DNA of 64,000 bases from Streptomyces kaniharaensis (GTDB lineage Bacteria > Actinomycetota > Actinomycetes > Streptomycetales > Streptomycetaceae), in contig NZ_WBOF01000001.1 in assembly GCF_009569385.1 (NCBI RefSeq), positions 4,453,501-4,517,500 of the forward strand, written 5' to 3'. The translations under genes were made by a program, and so were the position numbers. A model generated the notes under the pieces. The model saw nothing but the letters and a program-made list of their open reading frames with translations. It searched no databases and had not been told where the DNA came from. Positions 5,109 through 31,708 of this stretch are shown in pieces. Numbering within the stretch: position 1 is the first letter of the stretch; every line of letters starts with the position of its first letter.

Positions 5109-5560
5109 ACGACGACCAGACCGTCGCCCTGATCCAGCAGGCCATCGGCAGCGCCGCCCACGGTGACATCGACACCGCCGCGCGCGCCCTCGAATCCCTT
5201 GGCCAGGCCAGCGACAACAACCGCATGTACGGGGTGTGCTGCGCGATCGCCACCACCGGCACCCACACCCTCCGGCTCTTGTATGGATCGCAGGCCCCCA
5301 CGGCCGACAACGGCGCCATGTGGGCGACGACCGAACTCACGCCCGGCGCGTTCGCGGCCGACCCGGCCGAGGCGTTCGCGATGCGCTTCCTCGTGGCCTA
5401 CAGCAACGGCGACACGGACACCTGCCTGGCCCTGTTCGAGACCGCGTTGAAGGCGGGCGGCGAACAGTACGTCTCCTCGGTCTGCGCTCTGCTGACGGCG
5501 GTCGCCAAGCTGGTCCGCCTCGCGCTGGACGAGAAGGCCGCCGGACGCCTGCCGGCCTAA
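5105..5560 (+). CDS. Hypothetical phage protein
   Basis: 151 residues from GTG 5105 (GTGA overlap). Mostly alpha-helical, with acidic and alanine-rich segments. No transmembrane helix or catalytic motif. It resembles small helical proteins next to replication genes in Streptomyces phages, but no named family is recognised. A strong hairpin follows the stop, so it probably ends a transcription unit. Confidence 0.6.
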   Translation: MNDDQTVALIQQAIGSAAHGDIDTAARALESLGQASDNNRMYGVCCAIATTGTHTLRLLYGSQAPTADNGAMWATTELTPGAFAADPAEAFAMRFLVAYSNGDTDTCLALFETALKAGGEQYVSSVCALLTAVAKLVRLALDEKAAGRLPA

Positions 5561-5571
5561 CCCGCCTGACT

Positions 5572-5606
5572 GCCTGGGGCGGGGTGTCACCGCCCCCGCC
5601 CCAGGC
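5572..5606 (+). terminator. Strong hairpin between early gene blocks
   Basis: Arms GCCTGGGGCGGGG (5572-5584) and CCCCGCCCCAGGC (5594-5606) are perfect 13-bp complements around a 9-nt loop. There is no U-tract, as is common for actinobacterial terminators. It separates the gene ending at 5560 from the replication initiator at 5649 and could terminate or attenuate transcription. Confidence 0.55.
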
Positions 5607-5648
5607 CACCAACCCACCTCCCCGCACCAACTGACCGGAGACCAGCAC

Positions 5649-6584
5649 ATGGCCGAGAAGGACCGGCGCACTTACGTCCGTGTCCACGACGGGCTGACGG
5701 ACCACCCGAAGATCATCGAGGTGGGCGGGGAGGCCGCGTGGCTGTACGTCAGCGCGCTCTGCTACTCGTCGCGTCAGCTGACCGACGGCCTGGTTCCGAA
5801 GCGTCTGATCCCTCGACTGACCGACGGAAGCCAACCCGAAGCAAGTGCTTCGGCACTGCTTCGCGTTGGCTTGCTTCACGAGGGCGAACACGACTGCCCT
5901 CGATGCCCCGTCGGAGGGCCCGACATGTACGTCGTGCACGACTACCTCGTCCACCAGAGGTCCGCTGCGGAGGTGACAGAGCTCCGCGAGAAGCGCTCCG
6001 CCGCAGGTCAGCGGGGTGGAAGGCGCTCGGGCGAGTCCCGTCGGGCCGCCTCCAGCGCCGAAGCAAACGGTGAAGCAAGTGCTTCAGCAAAACCGAAGCA
6101 AACGCGAACCAAAACCGAAGCAGAGACAGAGACAGAGACAGAGGTAGAAGAAGTACTACGTACTTCTTCACGTACGCGCCGCAAGACCGGCCACGACGAG
6201 CCGCCGAGGGCCGACGTCGAACGCGTCTGCCGAGCCCTCGCCGACGCCGTCGAAGCCAACGGCTCCAAGCGGCCCACCATCACCAAGCAGTGGCGGGACT
6301 CCGCCCGGCTGCTGATCGACAAGGACGGCCGGACCGTTGAGCAGGTCCTCGGCGCCATCGAGTGGTCGCAGAACAACGACTTCTGGCGGGCCGCCGTCCA
6401 GTCGATGCCCAAGCTCCGCAAGCAGTACGACCAGATGCGCCTCCAGGCCATGCGCAACCAGCCCGGCGCGAGCCTCGCCCCGACCGGCACCGGCGGCCAC
6501 CGGCCATCCACCACTGACCAGCGCGTCCAGCAAGGCCTCGCCCTCGTCGAGGAGCTCCGCGCGCTCGAAGGAGAGCACCAGTGA
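5649..6584 (+). CDS. Phage replication initiator / replisome organiser-like protein
   Basis: 311 residues, RBS (GGAGA) upstream. The N-terminal 110 residues (RTYVRVHDGLTDHPKIIEVG, then AWLYVSALCYSSRQLTDG) match the winged-helix N-terminus of phage replisome-organiser proteins. A low-complexity linker spans about residues 137-180, and a helical C-terminal domain (about 190-290, with WRDSARLLIDKDGRTVEQV and FWRAAVQSMPKLRKQYDQM) resembles DnaD/helicase-loader-like tails. The linker is encoded by a locally AT-rich stretch packed with GAAGCA repeats and a perfect dyad, as in lambda O-type initiators that carry the origin inside their gene. The protein probably binds that origin and recruits the host helicase. 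Confidence 0.72.
   Translation: MAEKDRRTYVRVHDGLTDHPKIIEVGGEAAWLYVSALCYSSRQLTDGLVPKRLIPRLTDGSQPEASASALLRVGLLHEGEHDCPRCPVGGPDMYVVHDYLVHQRSAAEVTELREKRSAAGQRGGRRSGESRRAASSAEANGEASASAKPKQTRTKTEAETETETEVEEVLRTSSRTRRKTGHDEPPRADVERVCRALADAVEANGSKRPTITKQWRDSARLLIDKDGRTVEQVLGAIEWSQNNDFWRAAVQSMPKLRKQYDQMRLQAMRNQPGASLAPTGTGGHRPSTTDQRVQQGLALVEELRALEGEHQ
5838..5877. repeat. GAAGCA/TGCTTC repeat cluster in initiator gene (upstream part)
   Basis: An inverted repeat GAAGCA-AG-TGCTTC lies at 5838-5851, followed by further TGCTTC copies at 5857-5862 and 5872-5877. The same 14-bp unit recurs at 6072-6085. These look like iteron half-sites for the initiator encoded here. Confidence 0.5.
6060..6169. other. Candidate phage replication origin inside the initiator gene
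   Basis: This stretch stands out from its ~70% GC surroundings. It has GAAGCAAACG at 6060-6069 and again at 6095-6104, GAAGCAAGTGCTTC at 6072-6085, another GAAGCA at 6117-6122, a run of GAGACA repeats at about 6123-6141, and a perfect dyad with 10-bp arms GAAGAAGTAC (6147-6156) and GTACTTCTTC (6160-6169) around TAC. Iterons, an easily melted purine-rich tract and a dyad inside the initiator ORF are the layout of lambdoid origins. Inferred, not proven. Confidence 0.5.
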
Positions 6585-10605: not shown

Positions 10606-10755
10606 TTGCCGTTCAACGTCGGCGACCCCTGGAGTCTGGAGGACACCCTCCGCGAACTCTGCCAGCCGCCCTGCGACCCGATGTTCCCCAGTGACCCCGA
10701 CAGCCACGACGACAACTGCCCCGCCCGGACCTACAGCCCCGAGAGCGAGTGGTGA
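10606..10755 (+). CDS. Tiny acidic protein
   Basis: 49 residues from a TTG with a GAGGA-type RBS about 8 nt upstream. Acidic with several Cys (LCQPPCDP, DNCPART). The next GTG overlaps its stop (GTGA). No family; short, so confidence is limited. Confidence 0.4.
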   Translation: MPFNVGDPWSLEDTLRELCQPPCDPMFPSDPDSHDDNCPARTYSPESEW

Positions 10756-10982
10756 CCGTCAGCCCCTGGCTGGTCCTGGCCGGCGCCCTCCTCGGCGCCG
10801 GCCTCGGGACCGTCCTTCTGCCATCCACCCACCCACACCCGGAGACGCGCCATGACCGCCTGGACCGTCCTCGCCACCTGCGGACCCGCCACCATCATCG
10901 GCCTGCTCTGGCTCCGCAACATCCGCCGCAACCTCGCCGCCGCAGCCGACACCATCGCCGAACGCGACGCCGTCGACCGTGA
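10752..10982 (+). CDS. Possible small membrane protein overlapping the next gene
   Basis: 76 residues from a GTG overlapping the upstream stop. The first 25 residues form a hydrophobic helix (WLVLAGALLGAGLGTVLLP). The remainder overlaps the next gene in another frame for about 130 bp and reads as Arg/His-rich low complexity, which argues against all of it being functional. Either the N-terminus alone matters or this is spurious. Confidence 0.3.
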   Translation: MTVSPWLVLAGALLGAGLGTVLLPSTHPHPETRHDRLDRPRHLRTRHHHRPALAPQHPPQPRRRSRHHRRTRRRRP

Positions 10983-11046
10983 GTTCGCCGCCCTCATCGC
11001 CCAGCTCGACCCCGACCTCACCGACCAGGAGGACACGACGTGGTGA
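10852..11046 (+). CDS. Small single-pass membrane protein
   Basis: 64 residues, ATG with GGAGA upstream. An N-terminal hydrophobic segment (WTVLATCGPATIIGLLWL) is followed by a basic patch and a helical acidic tail (DREFAALIAQLDPDLTDQED), the plan of an N-out membrane anchor. Function unknown. Confidence 0.5.
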   Translation: MTAWTVLATCGPATIIGLLWLRNIRRNLAAAADTIAERDAVDREFAALIAQLDPDLTDQEDTTW

Positions 11047-11366
11047 CCCTCACCAGCCGGCAGCAACAGATCCTCCGCCTCGTCGCCGAAGGCCACACCA
11101 ACGCCGCCATCGGCCGCCGCCTCAACATCACCGAGCAAGCCGCCGGATCCGCCGTCGCCCGACTCCTCGCCAAACTCGGCGCCCGCGACCGCGCCAACCT
11201 CGTCCACATCGCCCACCAGCACCGACTCCTCACCCACGTCGAATGCGGCACCCACAACGGCTACCGCCGCCACCAGAAGCGCCGCGAACCCGCCTGCACC
11301 GACTGCCGCGAAGCCGAACGCATCCACAGCGCCATCCGACGCGCCCAGACCAGGAGAGCCGCATGA
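11043..11366 (+). CDS. LuxR/GerE-type HTH regulator with C-terminal Cys motif
   Basis: 107 residues. I prefer GTG 11,043, which overlaps the upstream stop, over the adjacent GTG 11,040. The N-terminal ~60 residues are a GerE-type HTH (LTSRQQQILRLVAEGHTNAA, recognition helix around TEQAAGSAVARLLAKLGARD). The C-terminal part has CGTHNGYRRHQKRREPACTDC, the actinophage motif also present in the protein at 3,908. Likely a DNA-binding transcription regulator of the phage; its target is unknown. Confidence 0.7.
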   Translation: MTLTSRQQQILRLVAEGHTNAAIGRRLNITEQAAGSAVARLLAKLGARDRANLVHIAHQHRLLTHVECGTHNGYRRHQKRREPACTDCREAERIHSAIRRAQTRRAA

Positions 11367-11596
11367 CCAGCGCCTACCAGCAGCAGCTCGTCCAGCAACT
11401 CCGCGACTCCGAGGCCCGCATAGCCGCCGTCCGGGCGCTCCACCAGTCCGTTGACGGCCTCGGCTACCACGAGGACGGCAGGTACGAAGGCGACCGCCTG
11501 GCGTGCAGCACCTGCGGCACCCCCGACGAATACGCCGCCTGGTGGCCCTGCTCCACCATCCGCGCCCTCGACGGGGCGCCCGAGGCCCAGCCGTGA
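11363..11596 (+). CDS. Small hypothetical protein
   Basis: 77 residues, ATG overlapping the regulator stop (ATGA) with AGGAGAG upstream. N-terminal helix (QQLVQQLRDSEARIAAVRAL), then a CSTCGTPDEYAAWWPC segment that may bind zinc. Unknown function. Confidence 0.55.
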   Translation: MTSAYQQQLVQQLRDSEARIAAVRALHQSVDGLGYHEDGRYEGDRLACSTCGTPDEYAAWWPCSTIRALDGAPEAQP

Positions 11597-25499: not shown

Positions 25500-25565
25500 C
25501 CAAACCCGCAGCTTCTGACCGCCACCCGCAGCAGGGTGGTGCCGGCCACGGCAGGAATGGTCCCC

Positions 25566-25592
25566 GCCCCCGCAGCGCGCCGCGCCGGGGGC
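25566..25592 (+). terminator. Hairpin upstream of the capsid gene
   Basis: GCCCCCG (25,566-25,572) pairs with CGGGGGC (25,586-25,592) around a GC-rich loop, followed by CTTCTCACTT. It lies 36 nt before the major capsid ATG and may protect or attenuate the capsid mRNA. Confidence 0.5.
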
Positions 25593-25628
25593 CTTCTCAC
25601 TTCCATCTCCCGCCCTGGAGGCACCCCC

Positions 25629-27005
25629 ATGTCTGCCGAGCTCCGCGAGGCACTGACCGCGGCCGGCGCATCCGCGCTCGTCCCGAAGGTCATCGACCCG
25701 AACCTCTTCGAGAGGATCCGGCGGTACTCGCCGCTGATCGAGGCCCTGCCCTCGCAGAAGATCAAGACCACGGACTACTACTTCAACACCCGCAACGGCC
25801 TCGCCTCCGGTGGTGCCGTCACCGACGGCGGCGCCCGACAGGTGTCCGTCGGCACGTACTTCCAGAACAAGTTCACGATCAAGCAGCTCCAGGTCGTCGG
25901 CGCGGTCACCGGCTACGCCGAGGAGGTCACCGCCGATGTCATCGGTGACCTGCGGGCCCGCGAGATCATGGGCGCCATCAAGGGCCTGCGCTGGGACACC
26001 GAGCAGCAGCTCGTCGCCGGCAACGCGGGCGCGACCCAGTTCGGGCCGTACCCGCAGTTCGACGGCCTCGCATCGCTGATCAACCAGTACACGGCCACCG
26101 GCAGCGCCGGCCAGAACAGCATCGATGCCGGTGGTGGCAACGTCTCCCTTTCGCTGCTGAACCAGCTGATCGACCTGGTCGAGTCGTACACCGCCGCCCA
26201 GGTCACCACCGGCGGCTCGGACTGGATGCTCGTGATGTCGAGCACCGCCGAGGGCGCGCTCGCGAGCCTGTTCACCAACCAGCAGCGGTTCATGGACGTG
26301 GAGGTCACCCCCGGCCTCGTCGTCCCGAGCTACCGCAACATCCCGATCATCCGGTCCTCCTACCTCGGGACTAAGGGCACCAGCATGGGTACCGTCACCG
26401 GGACCCCGGCCACCACCGGCGGCACCCTCGCGGCAGGCACCTACTACTACAAGGTCGCGCCGGTCATGTCCCGCCAGGGCGAGGCCGCCGCATCGGCCGA
26501 GGTGACCGTCACCACCACCGGGTCGACCTCAACGGCGACGCTGGCGTTCACCCCGCCGACCGGCTTCCAGTCCAGCACCCCGCAGCACTACATGGTGTAC
26601 CGGGCGACCGCGACCGGCCAGGAGACCCTCCTCGGCGCCGTGGACGCGACCGTGGGCCTGGCCGCCGACGGGATCACCCCGATCCTGACCACCAGCATCG
26701 TCGACACCGGCACGGCTCTGGTGCCGCAGAACGGCGCGACCGTCCCGGCCCAGACCCCCGCCACGTACGTCGGCACCAACACCGGCCTCAAGCCCCGCAG
26801 CGTGGGCCAGGAGGACATCTACCTGATGTCCCGTGACCGCGACAACGTGCTGCGGCCGTACGTGCGTGACCTGATGCCCAAGGACGTGTACCCGACCACC
26901 AGCAGCCCCGACTCGATGCCGTTCGCCGTCGTCTCGGACACCTGCCTCGCAGTCCGAGGCGCGGAGTGGATCGGCCGTCTGTCCCGCGTCACACCGGCGC
27001 TGTAA
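25629..27005 (+). CDS. Major capsid protein (HK97 fold) with inserted Ig/Fn3-like domain
   Basis: 458 residues; ATG 25,629 has CTGGAGG upstream. Residues 1-250 show HK97-fold capsid features (LFERIRRYSPLIEALPSQKI, VVGAVTGYAEEVTADVIGD). Residues about 255-385 are a Thr/Ala-rich beta insert (GTLAAGTYYYKVAPVMSRQG, HYMVYRATATGQETLLGAVD) that looks like a fibronectin-III or Ig-like domain. The capsid fold then resumes (PRSVGQEDIYLMSRDRDNVL). Such insertions usually decorate the capsid surface. The protein forms the icosahedral shell after proteolysis. Confidence 0.9.
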   Translation: MSAELREALTAAGASALVPKVIDPNLFERIRRYSPLIEALPSQKIKTTDYYFNTRNGLASGGAVTDGGARQVSVGTYFQNKFTIKQLQVVGAVTGYAEEVTADVIGDLRAREIMGAIKGLRWDTEQQLVAGNAGATQFGPYPQFDGLASLINQYTATGSAGQNSIDAGGGNVSLSLLNQLIDLVESYTAAQVTTGGSDWMLVMSSTAEGALASLFTNQQRFMDVEVTPGLVVPSYRNIPIIRSSYLGTKGTSMGTVTGTPATTGGTLAAGTYYYKVAPVMSRQGEAAASAEVTVTTTGSTSTATLAFTPPTGFQSSTPQHYMVYRATATGQETLLGAVDATVGLAADGITPILTTSIVDTGTALVPQNGATVPAQTPATYVGTNTGLKPRSVGQEDIYLMSRDRDNVLRPYVRDLMPKDVYPTTSSPDSMPFAVVSDTCLAVRGAEWIGRLSRVTPAL

Positions 27006-27075: not shown

Positions 27076-27336
27076 GTGTTCGTCACCAAGAAGCATCCCG
27101 GCGGCAGCTCGCACGGCTACCAGTGGCCCAAGGGCGGCGAGTTCATCGAGATGAGCCCCGAGCACGCCCACGAGCTGGTCACCATCCAGCCGGGCGAGTT
27201 CGAGGCCGTACCCGAGCTGCCGAAGGGCGCCAAGGCCCACGTGCCGCCGACCGCCCTAGGGCGGGTATCGGGTCGTGATCAATCTGTGGGATTCGCTCTC
27301 ACGGCGAGGCCTGATCAGGTAGACCATGTCGCGTGA
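27076..27336 (+). pseudogene. Small head gene broken near its 3' end by the IS element
   Basis: The frame starts at GTG 27,076 and reads MFVTKKHPGGSSHGYQWPKG onward, a typical small actinophage head-region protein. At codon 61 (CTA, 27,256-27,258) it enters the IS and gains a 25-residue foreign tail ending at TGA 27,334-27,336. Joining CTA directly to the sequence after the IS (28,359) restores the frame as AADTVVEE and a stop at 28,383-28,385, giving an original length of 69 residues. The stop of the altered frame overlaps the transposase GTG. Confidence 0.8.
27259..27282 (+). repeat. Left terminal inverted repeat of the IS
   Basis: Begins GGGCGGGTATCGGG and ends GATCAA; pairs with the right end with 5 mismatches over 24 bp. 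A TA target duplication lies immediately outside at 27,257-27,258. Confidence 0.85.
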
Positions 27337-28336
27337 CGCGAGTGCAACTGACTGATGCAGAGTGGGAGTTCATCGGGCCTTACCTGCCGATCGGCGAGTA
27401 CGGCCCGTATCCGGAGCGGCTGCGGCAGCAGTTCGAGGGCGTGATCTGGCGGTTCAGGACCGGAGGGCAGTGGCGGGAGATGCCGGCGGAGTTCGGCGCG
27501 TGGTCGACCGTCTCCAACCGCTTCCGGCAGTGGCGTGACGCGGGCGTCTTCGAAGCCCTGCTCGAGGGCGCGATCGCGGAGGCCGCGAGGCGGGGCGAGG
27601 TGGACTTGTCGCTGGTCAGCGTGGATTCCACCACCGTTCGGGCCCACCACGACGCCGCCGGGATGCACCTGCGCCCCGACGCCCTGGCGGCCCTGGAGAA
27701 GGCCGCCGACGAGGCGGAGAAGGCCCGGCAAAAAGGGGCGGCCCGGAAGAACAAGACGGACAGTGCACCGCAAATGATCCAGAACGCGAAGAACGACGAC
27801 GTGCCCGGCGGCGGCGCAAGCTCCGCCTGAAGGCCGCACTGCTCGGACGCTCCAGAGGCGGGCAAACCAGCAAGATCCATGTTGCCGGCGAGCGGAAGTG
27901 CCGACCGCTGGTGTTCGTGCTGACCGAGGGGCAGGCCGCCGACAGCCCGCAGTTCATCCCCGTGCTCAAGAAATTACGGGTCCGCGGGCCGGTCGGCCGT
28001 CCCCGCACCCGGCCCGACGCGGTCGCCGGGGACAAGGCCTACTCGTCCCGCGGCAACCGCGCCCACCTGCGTCAACGCGCGATCAAGGCCGTCATCCCGG
28101 AGAAGAAGGACCAGGCCGCCAACCGGACGAAGAAGGGCAGCCGTGGCGGCCGGCCCGTCAGCCACGACGCCGACCTCTACAAAGAGCGCAACACCGTCGA
28201 GCGCCTGATCAACAAGCTGAAAGCCTGGCGAGGCATCGCCACCCGCTACGACAAGACGCCCGCCAGCTACCTCGCCGGCCTCCACCTCCGCGGCGCGATG
28301 ATCTGGATCAAAGACCTCAGCAGGACCACTCCTTGA
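27333..28336 (+). CDS. IS5-family DDE transposase, expressed by -1 frameshift
   Basis: Two overlapping frames encode one enzyme. The first (GTG 27,333 to 27,830) has the N-terminal domain and first catalytic Asp (SLVSVDSTTVRAHH). The second runs stop-free through to 28,336, with GRSRGGQTSKIHVAGERKC, the second Asp (DAVAGDKAYSSRG) and the Glu region (ERNTVERLINKLKAWRG). An AAAAAGGGG run at 27,730-27,738 (C just before) is a classic slippery site; a -1 shift there joins the frames. So the transposase appears intact, not a pseudogene. It cuts and joins the IS ends. Confidence 0.85.
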
Positions 28337-28388: not shown

Positions 28389-29057
28389 GTGGCCGCCGAC
28401 ACGCCCACCCCGCTCGCGACGTTCGCGCAGCTCCAGGAAGGCGCGTTCGCGGACCTCGTACGCTCCTACACCAGCCCCCAAGTCCAGCAGGACCTCATGT
28501 TCGAGTCCACCCGGCTGTGCGAACGCGCCGCCGGCCGCCGCCTCGCGCCGTTCACCGGCCTGACGGAGACCGAGCGCGCCACCGGCATCGACCCGGACGA
28601 GTACATCGACGCCGGCAACGTGCCACTCGACCTCGCCGGGACACTGGGCCGCTCCTACGCCTACGCCATGGGCACCACCAGCCTGGTCCGGCACGGCTGG
28701 CTACGCCAGTTCGCCCCGCACTACCCGGAGTTGTGGACCTACAGCCTCCAGTCGATCACCATCCACCGTTCCTACGGCGGCGACCAGGTGGTGAACCTCG
28801 CGAACGTGCGGGGCCCGGACCCCGACACGGGACACATCTGGTACCCGATCGGCACGTTCCTGCCGATCGGGAGCTACGTGACGTACGTGTACGGCGGCGG
28901 CTACAGCACAGTCCCCGCCGACCTGGTCAGGGCCTGCAAGTACATGGCCGCCTCCATCGCAGTCCGCGAGTTGGACCCGACGATGGCCGGCCACGGGCAC
29001 GACCCGGACGCGCTCGCCGCAGACGCCCACGCCATCTGCGCCGACTACCAGGGCTGA
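28389..29057 (+). CDS. Head-tail connector protein
   Basis: 222 residues from GTG 28,389; its RBS (GGAGGAG at 28,375-28,381) lies in the displaced 3' end of the IS-interrupted gene, so the IS now separates this gene and everything downstream from upstream promoters. Helical N-terminus (LMFESTRLCERAAGRRLAPF), a beta-rich middle (TYSLQSITIHRSYGG, VTYVYGGGYSTVPADLVRAC) and a helical C-terminus resemble the gp6/adaptor family that extends the portal ring. Confidence 0.75.
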   Translation: MAADTPTPLATFAQLQEGAFADLVRSYTSPQVQQDLMFESTRLCERAAGRRLAPFTGLTETERATGIDPDEYIDAGNVPLDLAGTLGRSYAYAMGTTSLVRHGWLRQFAPHYPELWTYSLQSITIHRSYGGDQVVNLANVRGPDPDTGHIWYPIGTFLPIGSYVTYVYGGGYSTVPADLVRACKYMAASIAVRELDPTMAGHGHDPDALAADAHAICADYQG

Positions 29058-29062
29058 CGGCC

Positions 29063-29716
29063 GTGTGGGGCACTCCTCAGCCGTCCGGCGCACGGCACAC
29101 AACCCGGCGCCACCTGTCTGCTGCAGCCCGCGCGAAGCTGTCCGCCCGCATGAAGGGCCGCAAGCGACCCCACCGGGGCCATGCGCTCTCCGCATCAGCA
29201 CGCGCGAAGATCAGTGCGAAGCTCCGGGGACGGCACCCCGCGGGCCACAGGATGTCGGCGACCGCCAGGGCGAAGGTGTCCGCCAAGCTCAAGGGGCGTC
29301 ACCACCCTGGCCACAAGCTGTCCGCCTCCGCGAAGGCCAAGCTCTCCGCCAAGCTCAAGGGCAGGCATCGCACCCTGTCGGCCACCGCCCGCGCCAAGCT
29401 GAAGGCGCGCCGGCACAAGCCGCTCTCGGCCGCAGCCCGGGCGAAGCTCAGCGCGAGGATGAAGGGCCGCCATCACAAGGGCTCGCGCCACAAGATGAGC
29501 CCGGCCGCTCGGGCGAAGCTGTCCGCCCGGATGCGCGGTCGCCACCACAGGCCCGGCCACCGCAAGCCCATGTCGGCCGCCGCGAAAGCCAAGTTGTCCG
29601 CGCGGATGCGCGGCAAGCACCGCCGCGGGCACCCGATGTCTGCTGCCGCGCGCGCCAAGGCCGCCGTCACCAGACGCGCCCACCAGCGCAAGCAGACCCG
29701 CCGGAGGCGACGGTGA
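29063..29716 (+). CDS. Highly basic protein made of ~9 NUMOD3-like repeats
   Basis: 217 residues from GTG 29,063. After a 20-residue start, the protein consists almost wholly of about nine ~22-residue repeats with the core [LM]SAxARAKLSARMKGRHHxGH (for example LSAAARAKLSARMKGR, MSATARAKVSAKLKGR), and an RKQTRRRRR tail. This core matches NUMOD3, a short DNA-binding module usually found attached to homing endonucleases (GIY-YIG or HNH). Here no nuclease domain is attached. A virion or DNA-condensing role is possible from its place among connector genes. It couples by GTGA to the next gene. Confidence 0.8.
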   Translation: MWGTPQPSGARHTTRRHLSAAARAKLSARMKGRKRPHRGHALSASARAKISAKLRGRHPAGHRMSATARAKVSAKLKGRHHPGHKLSASAKAKLSAKLKGRHRTLSATARAKLKARRHKPLSAAARAKLSARMKGRHHKGSRHKMSPAARAKLSARMRGRHHRPGHRKPMSAAAKAKLSARMRGKHRRGHPMSAAARAKAAVTRRAHQRKQTRRRRR

Positions 29717-30216
29717 CCAACACGCCGGCCAACGCCGTCACTCGTGAGGCCGCGTGGCTTACCACCTTCGGGGACGGACTGCCCGCCCTACTGAAGGCGA
29801 ACGGCGGGCCGTGGGACGTGATCCAGGCGTACATGCCCCGCACTCCTGCCGCGCAGAAGACACAGCTGTACGTGCTGCGGCGCCGCTGGCAGACCGACCG
29901 GCTCTCCATCGGCCGGCGCTTGCCCTCCTATCACTTCCACCTGGTGGCGTACTGGCCGATCGGCGCGACCACCACCGGCACCCAGATCGCCGAGACCGAG
30001 CAGGCCGCGTTCGACAACGCGCTCTACCTGCTGGTGCAGCGCATCGAAGGATTCGCCACCGACCACTCTCACGGCGGCCGTTTCCTGTCCGTGGCAGAGG
30101 CGCCACCGACCACGGTGATCGACGTCGAGTACGGCGACCCGGCGCACGCCATCAGCGCCGGCTTCCTCACCGCGACCGTCACCTACACCGCGGACGACCA
30201 GGACTACACGGCCTGA
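29713..30216 (+). CDS. Putative tail terminator / tail completion protein
   Basis: 167 residues from GTG 29,713 overlapping the previous stop. Alpha/beta layout with IGRRLPSYHFHLVAYWPIGA and a helix (EQAAFDNALYLLVQRIEGFA), followed by a beta-rich C-terminus. It sits where siphoviruses encode the tail terminator (gpU/gp17-like), just before the major tail protein. Assignment is mostly by gene order. Confidence 0.55.
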   Translation: MTNTPANAVTREAAWLTTFGDGLPALLKANGGPWDVIQAYMPRTPAAQKTQLYVLRRRWQTDRLSIGRRLPSYHFHLVAYWPIGATTTGTQIAETEQAAFDNALYLLVQRIEGFATDHSHGGRFLSVAEAPPTTVIDVEYGDPAHAISAGFLTATVTYTADDQDYTA

Positions 30217-30526: not shown

Positions 30527-31708
30527 ATGACCCAGCTCGCCCGCTACGGCACCCTCGGCCTCGGCAAGGAAGGGTCAGGTACGCCGGGAACCTACGCGGC
30601 GCCGACGGTCGGCATCCCGTACACCGGCTCGTCCGGCTTCGAGGACATGATCGCGCAGATCAAGGACGAGAGCGTTCGCGGTAACGACACGATTCTGCAG
30701 GGCTCGTACCAGGGGCCCGCGCACGCCGAGTGGACCATCGACTGCCTCGCCTACCCCGACCTGACCGGCCACTTCCTCGCGGCGACCGTCGGCCCGGACA
30801 CCGTCACCGCTGGCACGAGCACCACGCTGTCCGCGGCCACCACTGTCGGGGCGACAGCGATCCAAGTGCCGGTATCGCTGGCGGCCGGCACGATCGTCAA
30901 GGTCGGTACCGGCGCGGCGATCGAGTACGCGATCACCGACGGCGCTCCGACAGGCACCGGCCCCTACACGTCGAACGTGACCACCGTGCTCGGCAAGACC
31001 GGCGTCAACCGCGTCGGCTTCGCCAACGCGCACTCCTCGTCGGACCCCGTGGTCGGGGCGACCACTCATACGTTCAAGCAGAACCCGGCCATCGCGTTGC
31101 CGACCTACTCGCTGACGTACTTCGACACCGTCAGCTACGTCAGCTGCAGCTACGTCCGGTTCTCCGAGCTTCAGATCAAGATCGATCCCAAGGGTGCGGT
31201 GACGCTCGGCACCAAGGCCACCAGTTTCCCCTCGGTCGCGGCCTCCACGGTCAGCGAGACCTACTCCCAGTACGATCCGCTGCTCGGCTGGTCCTGGAAC
31301 CTCACCAACGCCGGGGCCTCCAGCACCCGCGGCAAGAGCCTGGACGCGACGATCAAACGCGCCGTCGAGGCGATCGAGAGCAGCGACGGCACCCAGGTCC
31401 CGCGCGAGATCTTCGCCGGCGCGATCGAGTACGACGCCACGCTGAAAGCGATCTTCGAGAACAGCACCGACCTCAACCTGTTCCTCAACAACTCCCAGCA
31501 GCCCCTGACTGCGAGCATGCAGCAGCCACTGACCCGCGGCGGCCAGTCCCTCACACTGACCGCCTCCAAGACCGCCTGGCACAAGGGCAAGCGCGACATG
31601 TCCGGCAGCTACGCGCAGGCCGACTTCAGCATCAGCGGCATCTGGAACTCGACGGACGGCGGTGCGGTGCAGGCCACGCTGCTGAACTGGCAGACCACCG
31701 CCTACTGA
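30527..31708 (+). CDS. Major tail protein
   Basis: 393 residues. Long for a tail tube protein, with beta-strand-rich, Thr/Gly-rich sequence (AGTSTTLSAATTVGATAIQV, RFSELQIKIDPKGAVTLGTK, WNLTNAGASSTRGKSLDATI). Its position upstream of a frameshifted chaperone pair and the tape measure, followed by a strong terminator, is the standard siphovirus order for the tail tube subunit. Confidence 0.8.
   Translation: MTQLARYGTLGLGKEGSGTPGTYAAPTVGIPYTGSSGFEDMIAQIKDESVRGNDTILQGSYQGPAHAEWTIDCLAYPDLTGHFLAATVGPDTVTAGTSTTLSAATTVGATAIQVPVSLAAGTIVKVGTGAAIEYAITDGAPTGTGPYTSNVTTVLGKTGVNRVGFANAHSSSDPVVGATTHTFKQNPAIALPTYSLTYFDTVSYVSCSYVRFSELQIKIDPKGAVTLGTKATSFPSVAASTVSETYSQYDPLLGWSWNLTNAGASSTRGKSLDATIKRAVEAIESSDGTQVPREIFAGAIEYDATLKAIFENSTDLNLFLNNSQQPLTASMQQPLTRGGQSLTLTASKTAWHKGKRDMSGSYAQADFSISGIWNSTDGGAVQATLLNWQTTAY

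Follow-up and report, generated by a model that had tools for sequence, protein, structure and literature searches.

The window, a stretch of 64,000 nucleotides from Streptomyces kaniharaensis, carries a run of phage structural genes from a major capsid protein to a probable major tail protein, within which a small and extremely basic protein is encoded between a head-tail adaptor and a tail terminator (Table 1; L and G numbers are our handles for loci and genomes). The terminator gene recovered no match among the PHROGs and was recognized from its predicted fold, the model of which matched 8gtf, lambda gpU (3fz2) and T5 p142 (8bcp) in Foldseek searches (E 3.6e-6 to 4.3e-5) and aligned with 8bcp_B over 137 residues in VIA-align (Z 13.4, rmsd 2.5). 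The gene assigned as the tail protein occupies the place of the annotated major tail protein of the phages Sonali and Mufasa8; PHROG searches recovered for it only a weak unknown family, and a distant relative in L209 (profile, 86 bits) matches phrog_290, a 'minor tail protein'. Upstream of the adaptor an insertion sequence breaks the last residues of a small gene; it is absent from this position in L019 and L020 and may imply that the prophage copy in the window is defective. When compared with 50,697 phage records by tblastn, the array protein, the adaptor and the terminator recovered nothing, a result in which low-complexity masking may hide the array. In phage records the capsid protein had weak matches in only two Leptospira phages (four records), and the portal had matches of low identity in 179 records.

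Table 1. Positions of the genes and elements discussed in the text, in the window and in other loci
Feature	Record	Position	Strand	Basis or remark
Major capsid protein	window	25536..27005	+	phrog_752, E 5.9e-29
Small gene upstream of adaptor	window	27076..27336	+	compared with L019 and L020; last residues replaced by insertion sequence
IS4/5-type insertion sequence	window	27333-28336	+	DUF4096 half and DDE transposase half, each in its own frame
Head-tail adaptor, 5' neighbor of slot	window	28389..29057	+	phrog_442, E 8.5e-4, weak; homologues aligned
NUMOD3-array gene	window	29063..29716	+	217 aa; nine units of helix and linker; tail rich in Arg; acid-free
Tail terminator (from predicted fold), 3' neighbor of slot	window	29713..30216	+	AF2 pLDDT 90.8, pTM 0.87
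Probable major tail protein	window	30527..31708	+	by position
Free five-unit NUMOD3 array	L200	5995-6345	+	116 aa
Slot protein with hydrophobic stretches	L038 (Streptomyces griseocarneus prophage)	10753-11529	+	258 aa
Gene between adaptor and array	L115	10665-12173	-	502 aa, opposite strand
Gene between adaptor and array	L117	3911-5419	-	502 aa, opposite strand
Mufasa8 gp10 (QGJ93460.1)	L232 (MN586027.1)	5313-5786		157 aa, KKPVYTHPR repeats; annotated hypothetical

The array gene opens with a GTG codon a few bases 3' of the adaptor stop and closes with a TGA that overlaps the GTG of the terminator gene by 4 nt. Its product (24.0 kDa, computed pI 12, the ceiling of the program) contains 27 lysines, 42 arginines and 20 histidines, together 89 residues or 41%, with neither aspartate, glutamate nor cysteine; an acid-free and extremely basic composition of this kind is that of protamine-like virion proteins. 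The sequence contains nine repeats of the pattern [LM]SAxARAKLSARMKGRHH, which begin at residues 18, 42, 64, 86, 105, 121, 145, 170 and 192, with a spacing of 16-25 residues (mean 21.75), the fifth and ninth being degenerate. A sequence-only reading of this DNA had described about nine NUMOD3-like repeats in a protein devoid of a nuclease and encoded among connector genes, and each of these points stands. The Pfam NUMOD3 profile (PF07460) matches six stretches with 34.4 bits against a gathering cut-off of 20.4 (E 2.1e-8), Pfam detected neither a GIY-YIG nor an HNH nuclease domain in the protein, and the flanking genes are those of the head-tail connection, as judged from the weak phrog_442 match upstream and the tail-terminator fold downstream. 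Single NUMOD3-like units are weak matches, and a NUMOD3 family search of the organism's own genome did not report the gene at E <= 0.001. The units share a mean core identity of 62% in DNA and 64% in protein, and as they thus diverge about equally at both levels the array is not the product of a recent duplication. Pfam matches to IF3_C, DUF1833 and LacI were judged to be compositional.

As other frames are also open across this GC-rich stretch, the array could in principle be a high-GC open frame lying beside a real gene. This is refuted by the substitution pattern. When compared with the copy in genome G007, the array frame has a pN/pS of 0.25, against 1.72 and 1.66 for the two other frames, and the substitutions fall on codon positions 1, 2 and 3 in the numbers 28, 26 and 79. 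Values of 0.18-0.33 were likewise obtained in all 11 pairs of relatives hand-chosen among 15 close members, and in homologous loci the array frame stays open, with stop codons interrupting the other frames in several cases. Thus, the array frame is under purifying selection.

In the genus the array is present in 5 of 70 genomes, its own included, and the terminator in 10 of 394 genomes of the family drawn from a larger group. Seven of these ten have a basic gene between adaptor and terminator (hereafter the slot), and in the remaining three the terminator match starts 10-30 bp after the adaptor stop. For a wider survey, loci were selected by their flanking genes and not by NUMOD3, combining relatives of the adaptor in 17 genome contigs and in the best 80 of 119 viral contigs with the 10 family genomes, which gave 107 loci, 93 of them distinct, the window included. 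The terminator lies downstream of the adaptor in all 107. The sequence-only reading had placed its gene in the head-tail cluster, and this position recurs: the slot is occupied by a gene with a highly basic and almost acid-free product in 67 of the 93 distinct loci (66 found automatically and L115 by eye). Of the two outcomes named with that reading as refuting it, a profile search without NUMOD3 similarity and related phages without the gene at this place, neither was observed. In 24 others adaptor and terminator are adjacent with nothing between them, and in L069 the slot is likewise empty, with an acid-free array directly after the terminator. In L038 the slot instead encodes an unrelated protein with hydrophobic stretches, which recovered no Pfam match. 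In the viral contigs L115 and L117 a gene on the opposite strand is intercalated between adaptor and array, the product of which appears by eye to be an aminotransferase or a cysteine desulfurase-like protein and is possible cargo.

When mapped on a tree of the adaptors, the state of the slot changes 6 times against a mean of 23.5 in shuffled data, none of 200 shuffles being as low, though related rows cluster anyway; 23 of the 24 empty loci lie inside a single group of 27 (support 87/88). The array gene therefore appears mostly to have been inherited together with its neighbors and is mainly missing in one group. A search for NUMOD3 elsewhere in the whole records of 8 of the 24 empty loci recovered none, with 4 of 4 controls found, by a procedure that is blunt for degenerate arrays and on records that may be fragments. 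As 24 of 93 loci do without the gene, it is not essential to the assembly route.

The composition of the slot proteins is more persistent than their sequence motif. Among the 66 automatically identified members, K+R+H ranges from 33 to 69% (median 42%) and D+E from 0 to 4.4% (median 0), with no acidic residue at all in 36; 57 have at least four K/R among their last six residues. Pfam recovers NUMOD3 at E <= 0.01 in 53 of the 66 (best E 9e-28), and no nuclease domain is among the Pfam families listed for them. By motif count L087, L099 and L112 contain no NUMOD3-like unit, and still have 57-69% K/R/H and 0-2% D/E. Hence, the conserved feature of the slot is charge, the composition being kept even in members without NUMOD3. 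In a scan of 1045 plausible genes from the 93 loci (1.297 Mb; at least 100 aa, third-position GC of at least 75%, greedy choice), K+R+H of at least 32% combined with D+E of at most 5% was found in 67, namely the 66 slot genes and the gene of L069 one gene away. The slot genes had been preselected for charge and forced into the scan, and the others had not, so that the informative part of this result is the absence of such genes elsewhere in the loci; the scan missed the array of L115, and its sensitivity is therefore not full. A looser version (third-position GC > 60%, Lys of at least 6%) on 91 of the 93 loci recovered, besides upstream extensions of slot frames, only L069.

Searches seeded with arrays extended this picture to at least 86 distinct IMG/VR contigs (43 + 8 + 35, the last from the best 80 of 86 loci), the tally and its classes being counted by hand. 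Among the matches listed, 69 of the 86 have an adaptor and/or a terminator of the window type beside the array, as common descent would predict; six distinct contigs of this type (L069, L132, L133, L154, L191 and L210) have the array after the terminator. Twelve further contigs carry acid-free or nearly acid-free arrays among structural genes, each with at least one structural neighbor identified by a search tool no more than about 2 kb away, and the adaptor and terminator profiles of the window recovered no match in them. A phrog_442 head-tail adaptor lies near the array in L213, L224 and L227, one resembling the adaptor of Sonali in L209, and a major head protein together with a 'tail completion or Neck1' protein in L172, while relatives of the window tail protein (101-147 bits) are present in L141, L145, L146, L153, L173, L174, L224, L227 and L229. 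The array stands before the tail protein in L173, L209 and L224; in L141 and L153 it follows an adaptor-sized gene, and in L145 it lies between a capsid-sized and an adaptor-sized gene, these neighbors being named, like the adaptors and terminators in most of the twelve, by place and size. The tail protein of L224 has relatives in three contigs, two of them new, and in both new ones the array follows a gene of 174 aa.

In profile comparisons the adaptors of these further contigs had no similarity to that of the window (probability 0.5-1.5%). For the terminators the same comparison gave weak support, with 29% for the set of L224, Mufasa8, L209 and L173, and 71% for L145 and L171, which match each other at 97%; for L141 and L153 a relationship was not supported (0.1%). 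Five contigs fall outside the neck pattern. In L201 the array lies between terminase and portal, and in L206, as judged by eye, it neighbors a tail-like gene and, on the other strand, a terminase-like one. L200 contains a free array next to genes that appear by eye to be of a viral queuosine/preQ0 type, far from neck genes. L208 encodes, by eye, a GIY-YIG-like enzyme with NUMOD3 and 11% D+E. L215 is the fifth.

These arrangements bear on the idea that the protein is a structural part of the neck, such as a positively charged piece that plugs, clamps or lines the channel formed by portal, adaptor and terminator, in the place of a head-completion stopper. In the window the array gene indeed stands alone between adaptor and terminator, as might be anticipated for such a part. 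Nevertheless, the gene is not present lineage-wide, nothing being encoded at this point in the empty loci; it comes after the terminator gene in the six contigs listed above and precedes an adaptor-sized gene in L145. The predicted structure may also argue against such a part: the AlphaFold2 model, built from a 15-sequence alignment and of low confidence (pLDDT 63.5, pTM 0.19), appears as nine short helices with linkers and without tertiary packing, that is, without a globular fold. We accordingly regard a structural neck role as improbable. Searches of solved structures recovered no match for the 15-sequence array profile and only unrelated chains for a canonical array; a 14-sequence profile matched 14-3-3 proteins (E about 0.1) and the DNA-binding domain of I-TevI (1i3j; E 0.67), both too weak to build on.

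Among cultured phages, the adaptor of L224 has matches in the Arthrobacter phages Sonali and Mufasa8. In the latter, gp10 is 41% K/R/H and 0% D/E, recovers no Pfam match at E <= 0.01, and sits between gp9, a hypothetical protein in the terminator's place, and gp11 with the major tail protein gp12; its relative Sonali has no counterpart of gp10. When another array was compared with phage records, two matches were recovered (E 1-2). The one in Xanthomonas phage MK21 is an annotated homing endonuclease with 8% acidic residues, and the one in Myxococcus phage Mx1 lies on the strand opposite to the phage genes and was taken as chance. Ottawa, Wheelbite, THSA-485A and MMB025 were inspected by annotation, and none of the five THSA-485A genes with a computed composition is basic like the array protein.

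A further explanation is that the array is a selfish relic, namely the DNA-binding tail of an inserted GIY-YIG or HNH homing endonuclease that has lost its nuclease. NUMOD3 is a known appendage of such enzymes, as two papers describe (PMC1564403, PMC5107563), weak matches to phrog_314 were obtained, and the endonuclease model TIGR01453 matches 6 of the 66 slot proteins (best E 1.9e-4). In L078, moreover, a 246-aa ORF that is NUMOD4/HNH-like by eye lies between the terminator (about 5107) and the tail protein (about 6376). Against this, the TIGR01453 matches probably stem from the NUMOD3 part of that model, Pfam reports no nuclease domain among the slot proteins, and the GIY-YIG-like enzymes retain acidic residues, as seen in L208 (by eye) and MK21. 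A relic would also sit poorly with the purifying selection on the frame, with the NUMOD3-free members that keep the composition and perhaps with the clustering of the slot state on the adaptor tree, although related rows would cluster in any case. We regard a selfish relic as very unlikely.

More weight may be given to a nucleic-acid binder that is made late and never packaged, one that targets DNA of the host or the phage, or RNA, as the cell dies and whose gene simply lies in the late operon, with possible roles in compaction of the host nucleoid, late regulation or protection of concatemers. The same data on composition and position can be read in this way, and the free array of L200 demonstrates that NUMOD3 arrays do occur away from structural genes. 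Yet proteins of this class are encoded again between capsid and tail genes in contigs whose adaptors and terminators are not recognizably related to those of the window, and the linkage to the neck genes is closer than a general DNA-binding protein would need. On balance an unpackaged binder appears rather unlikely, if still worth keeping in mind.

We instead consider it somewhat more probable than the contrary that the array protein acts in virion assembly as a late, polycationic DNA-binding protein, its binding, packaging and late expression all being inferred. Each unit would pair a short helix with a Gly-Arg-His linker, as in the NUMOD3 motifs with which I-TevI-type homing endonucleases bind DNA. 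As nine such units are combined without a nuclease or acidic residues, strong and sequence-independent binding might be expected; as the gene is tightly enclosed by those of the adaptor and the tail terminator, the protein is probably made when heads fill and join tails. It could then coat or bridge phage DNA, either by being packaged with the genome in a protamine-like fashion, neutralizing its charge, or by being placed at the neck, where it would grip the DNA end packaged last. With 69 Lys/Arg charges per copy, about 145 copies would be required to neutralize a tenth of a 50-kb genome, whereas a dozen neck-bound copies could act only locally. The sequence-only reading had proposed that such an array could condense or organise packaged DNA, be ejected as a DNA-binding protein or mimic host nucleoid proteins; the late-structural position and acid-free composition favor a role in virion assembly over such a mimic.

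A bolder version of the virion-assembly reading, offered tentatively, is that there is an actinophage 'protamine' class: neck genes selected for charge and not for sequence, with products that are packed with the virion genome or clamp it. Such genes might have been built repeatedly, from repeats that range from NUMOD3 helices through YHLKHKRH-type and KKPVYTHPR-type units to plain K/R/H tracts. The broad reading is kept only a little above even, and the bold one clearly below, because a quarter of the loci lack the gene, the fold model is weak, L200 has a free array and the function is a predicted one.

The NUMOD3 motif itself is known. It is described as an appendage of homing endonucleases (PMC1564403, PMC5107563), with two repeats in tandem in a Vibrio phage enzyme (PMC5107563). 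The T4 intron endonucleases, including I-TevI, bind in the minor groove (PMC2988022). In a full-text search that covered few subscription journals, no NUMOD3 protein of a phage neck was found, nor was a paper on basic head-tail, Arg/Lys-rich or internal condensing proteins; related searches gave eukaryotic viruses only. An array that lacks both nuclease and acidic residues and is linked to the neck of a phage has no counterpart in the literature searched. The array protein shares with the I-TevI-type GIY-YIG enzymes (PF07460, phrog_314) the unit S-x-x-x-R-A-K-(I/L)-S-A-x-x-K-G-R and its tandem use; it differs from them in the lack of a nuclease, in its nine units, in the absence of acidic residues and in its conserved slot among structural genes, and may represent a DNA-binding motif of homing endonucleases put to another use.

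The DNA packaged by tailed phages is usually described as being held by pressure, metal ions and polyamines, and few dedicated DNA-condensing proteins are known from these phages. A neck gene conserved for its charge, with natural relatives that have or lack it, would make protamine-like proteins in phages a testable proposition, and with gp10 of Mufasa8 the question of a place in the virion becomes answerable in culture. The baculovirus protein P6.9 and the adenovirus protein VII are protamine- or histone-like virion proteins that condense DNA. The array protein resembles them in its small size, extreme positive charge and low complexity, and in keeping its composition while its sequence changes; it differs in coming from a tailed phage and in its predicted helical repeats. 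Like the internal proteins of T4, it would enter the head of a tailed phage together with the DNA if it is indeed packaged. A parallel from a cultured phage is gp10 of Mufasa8, which, in spite of its distinct KKPVYTHPR repeat and its lack of a Pfam match, resembles the array protein in its location among neck genes, its acid-free basic composition, its repetitive build and its absence from a relative.
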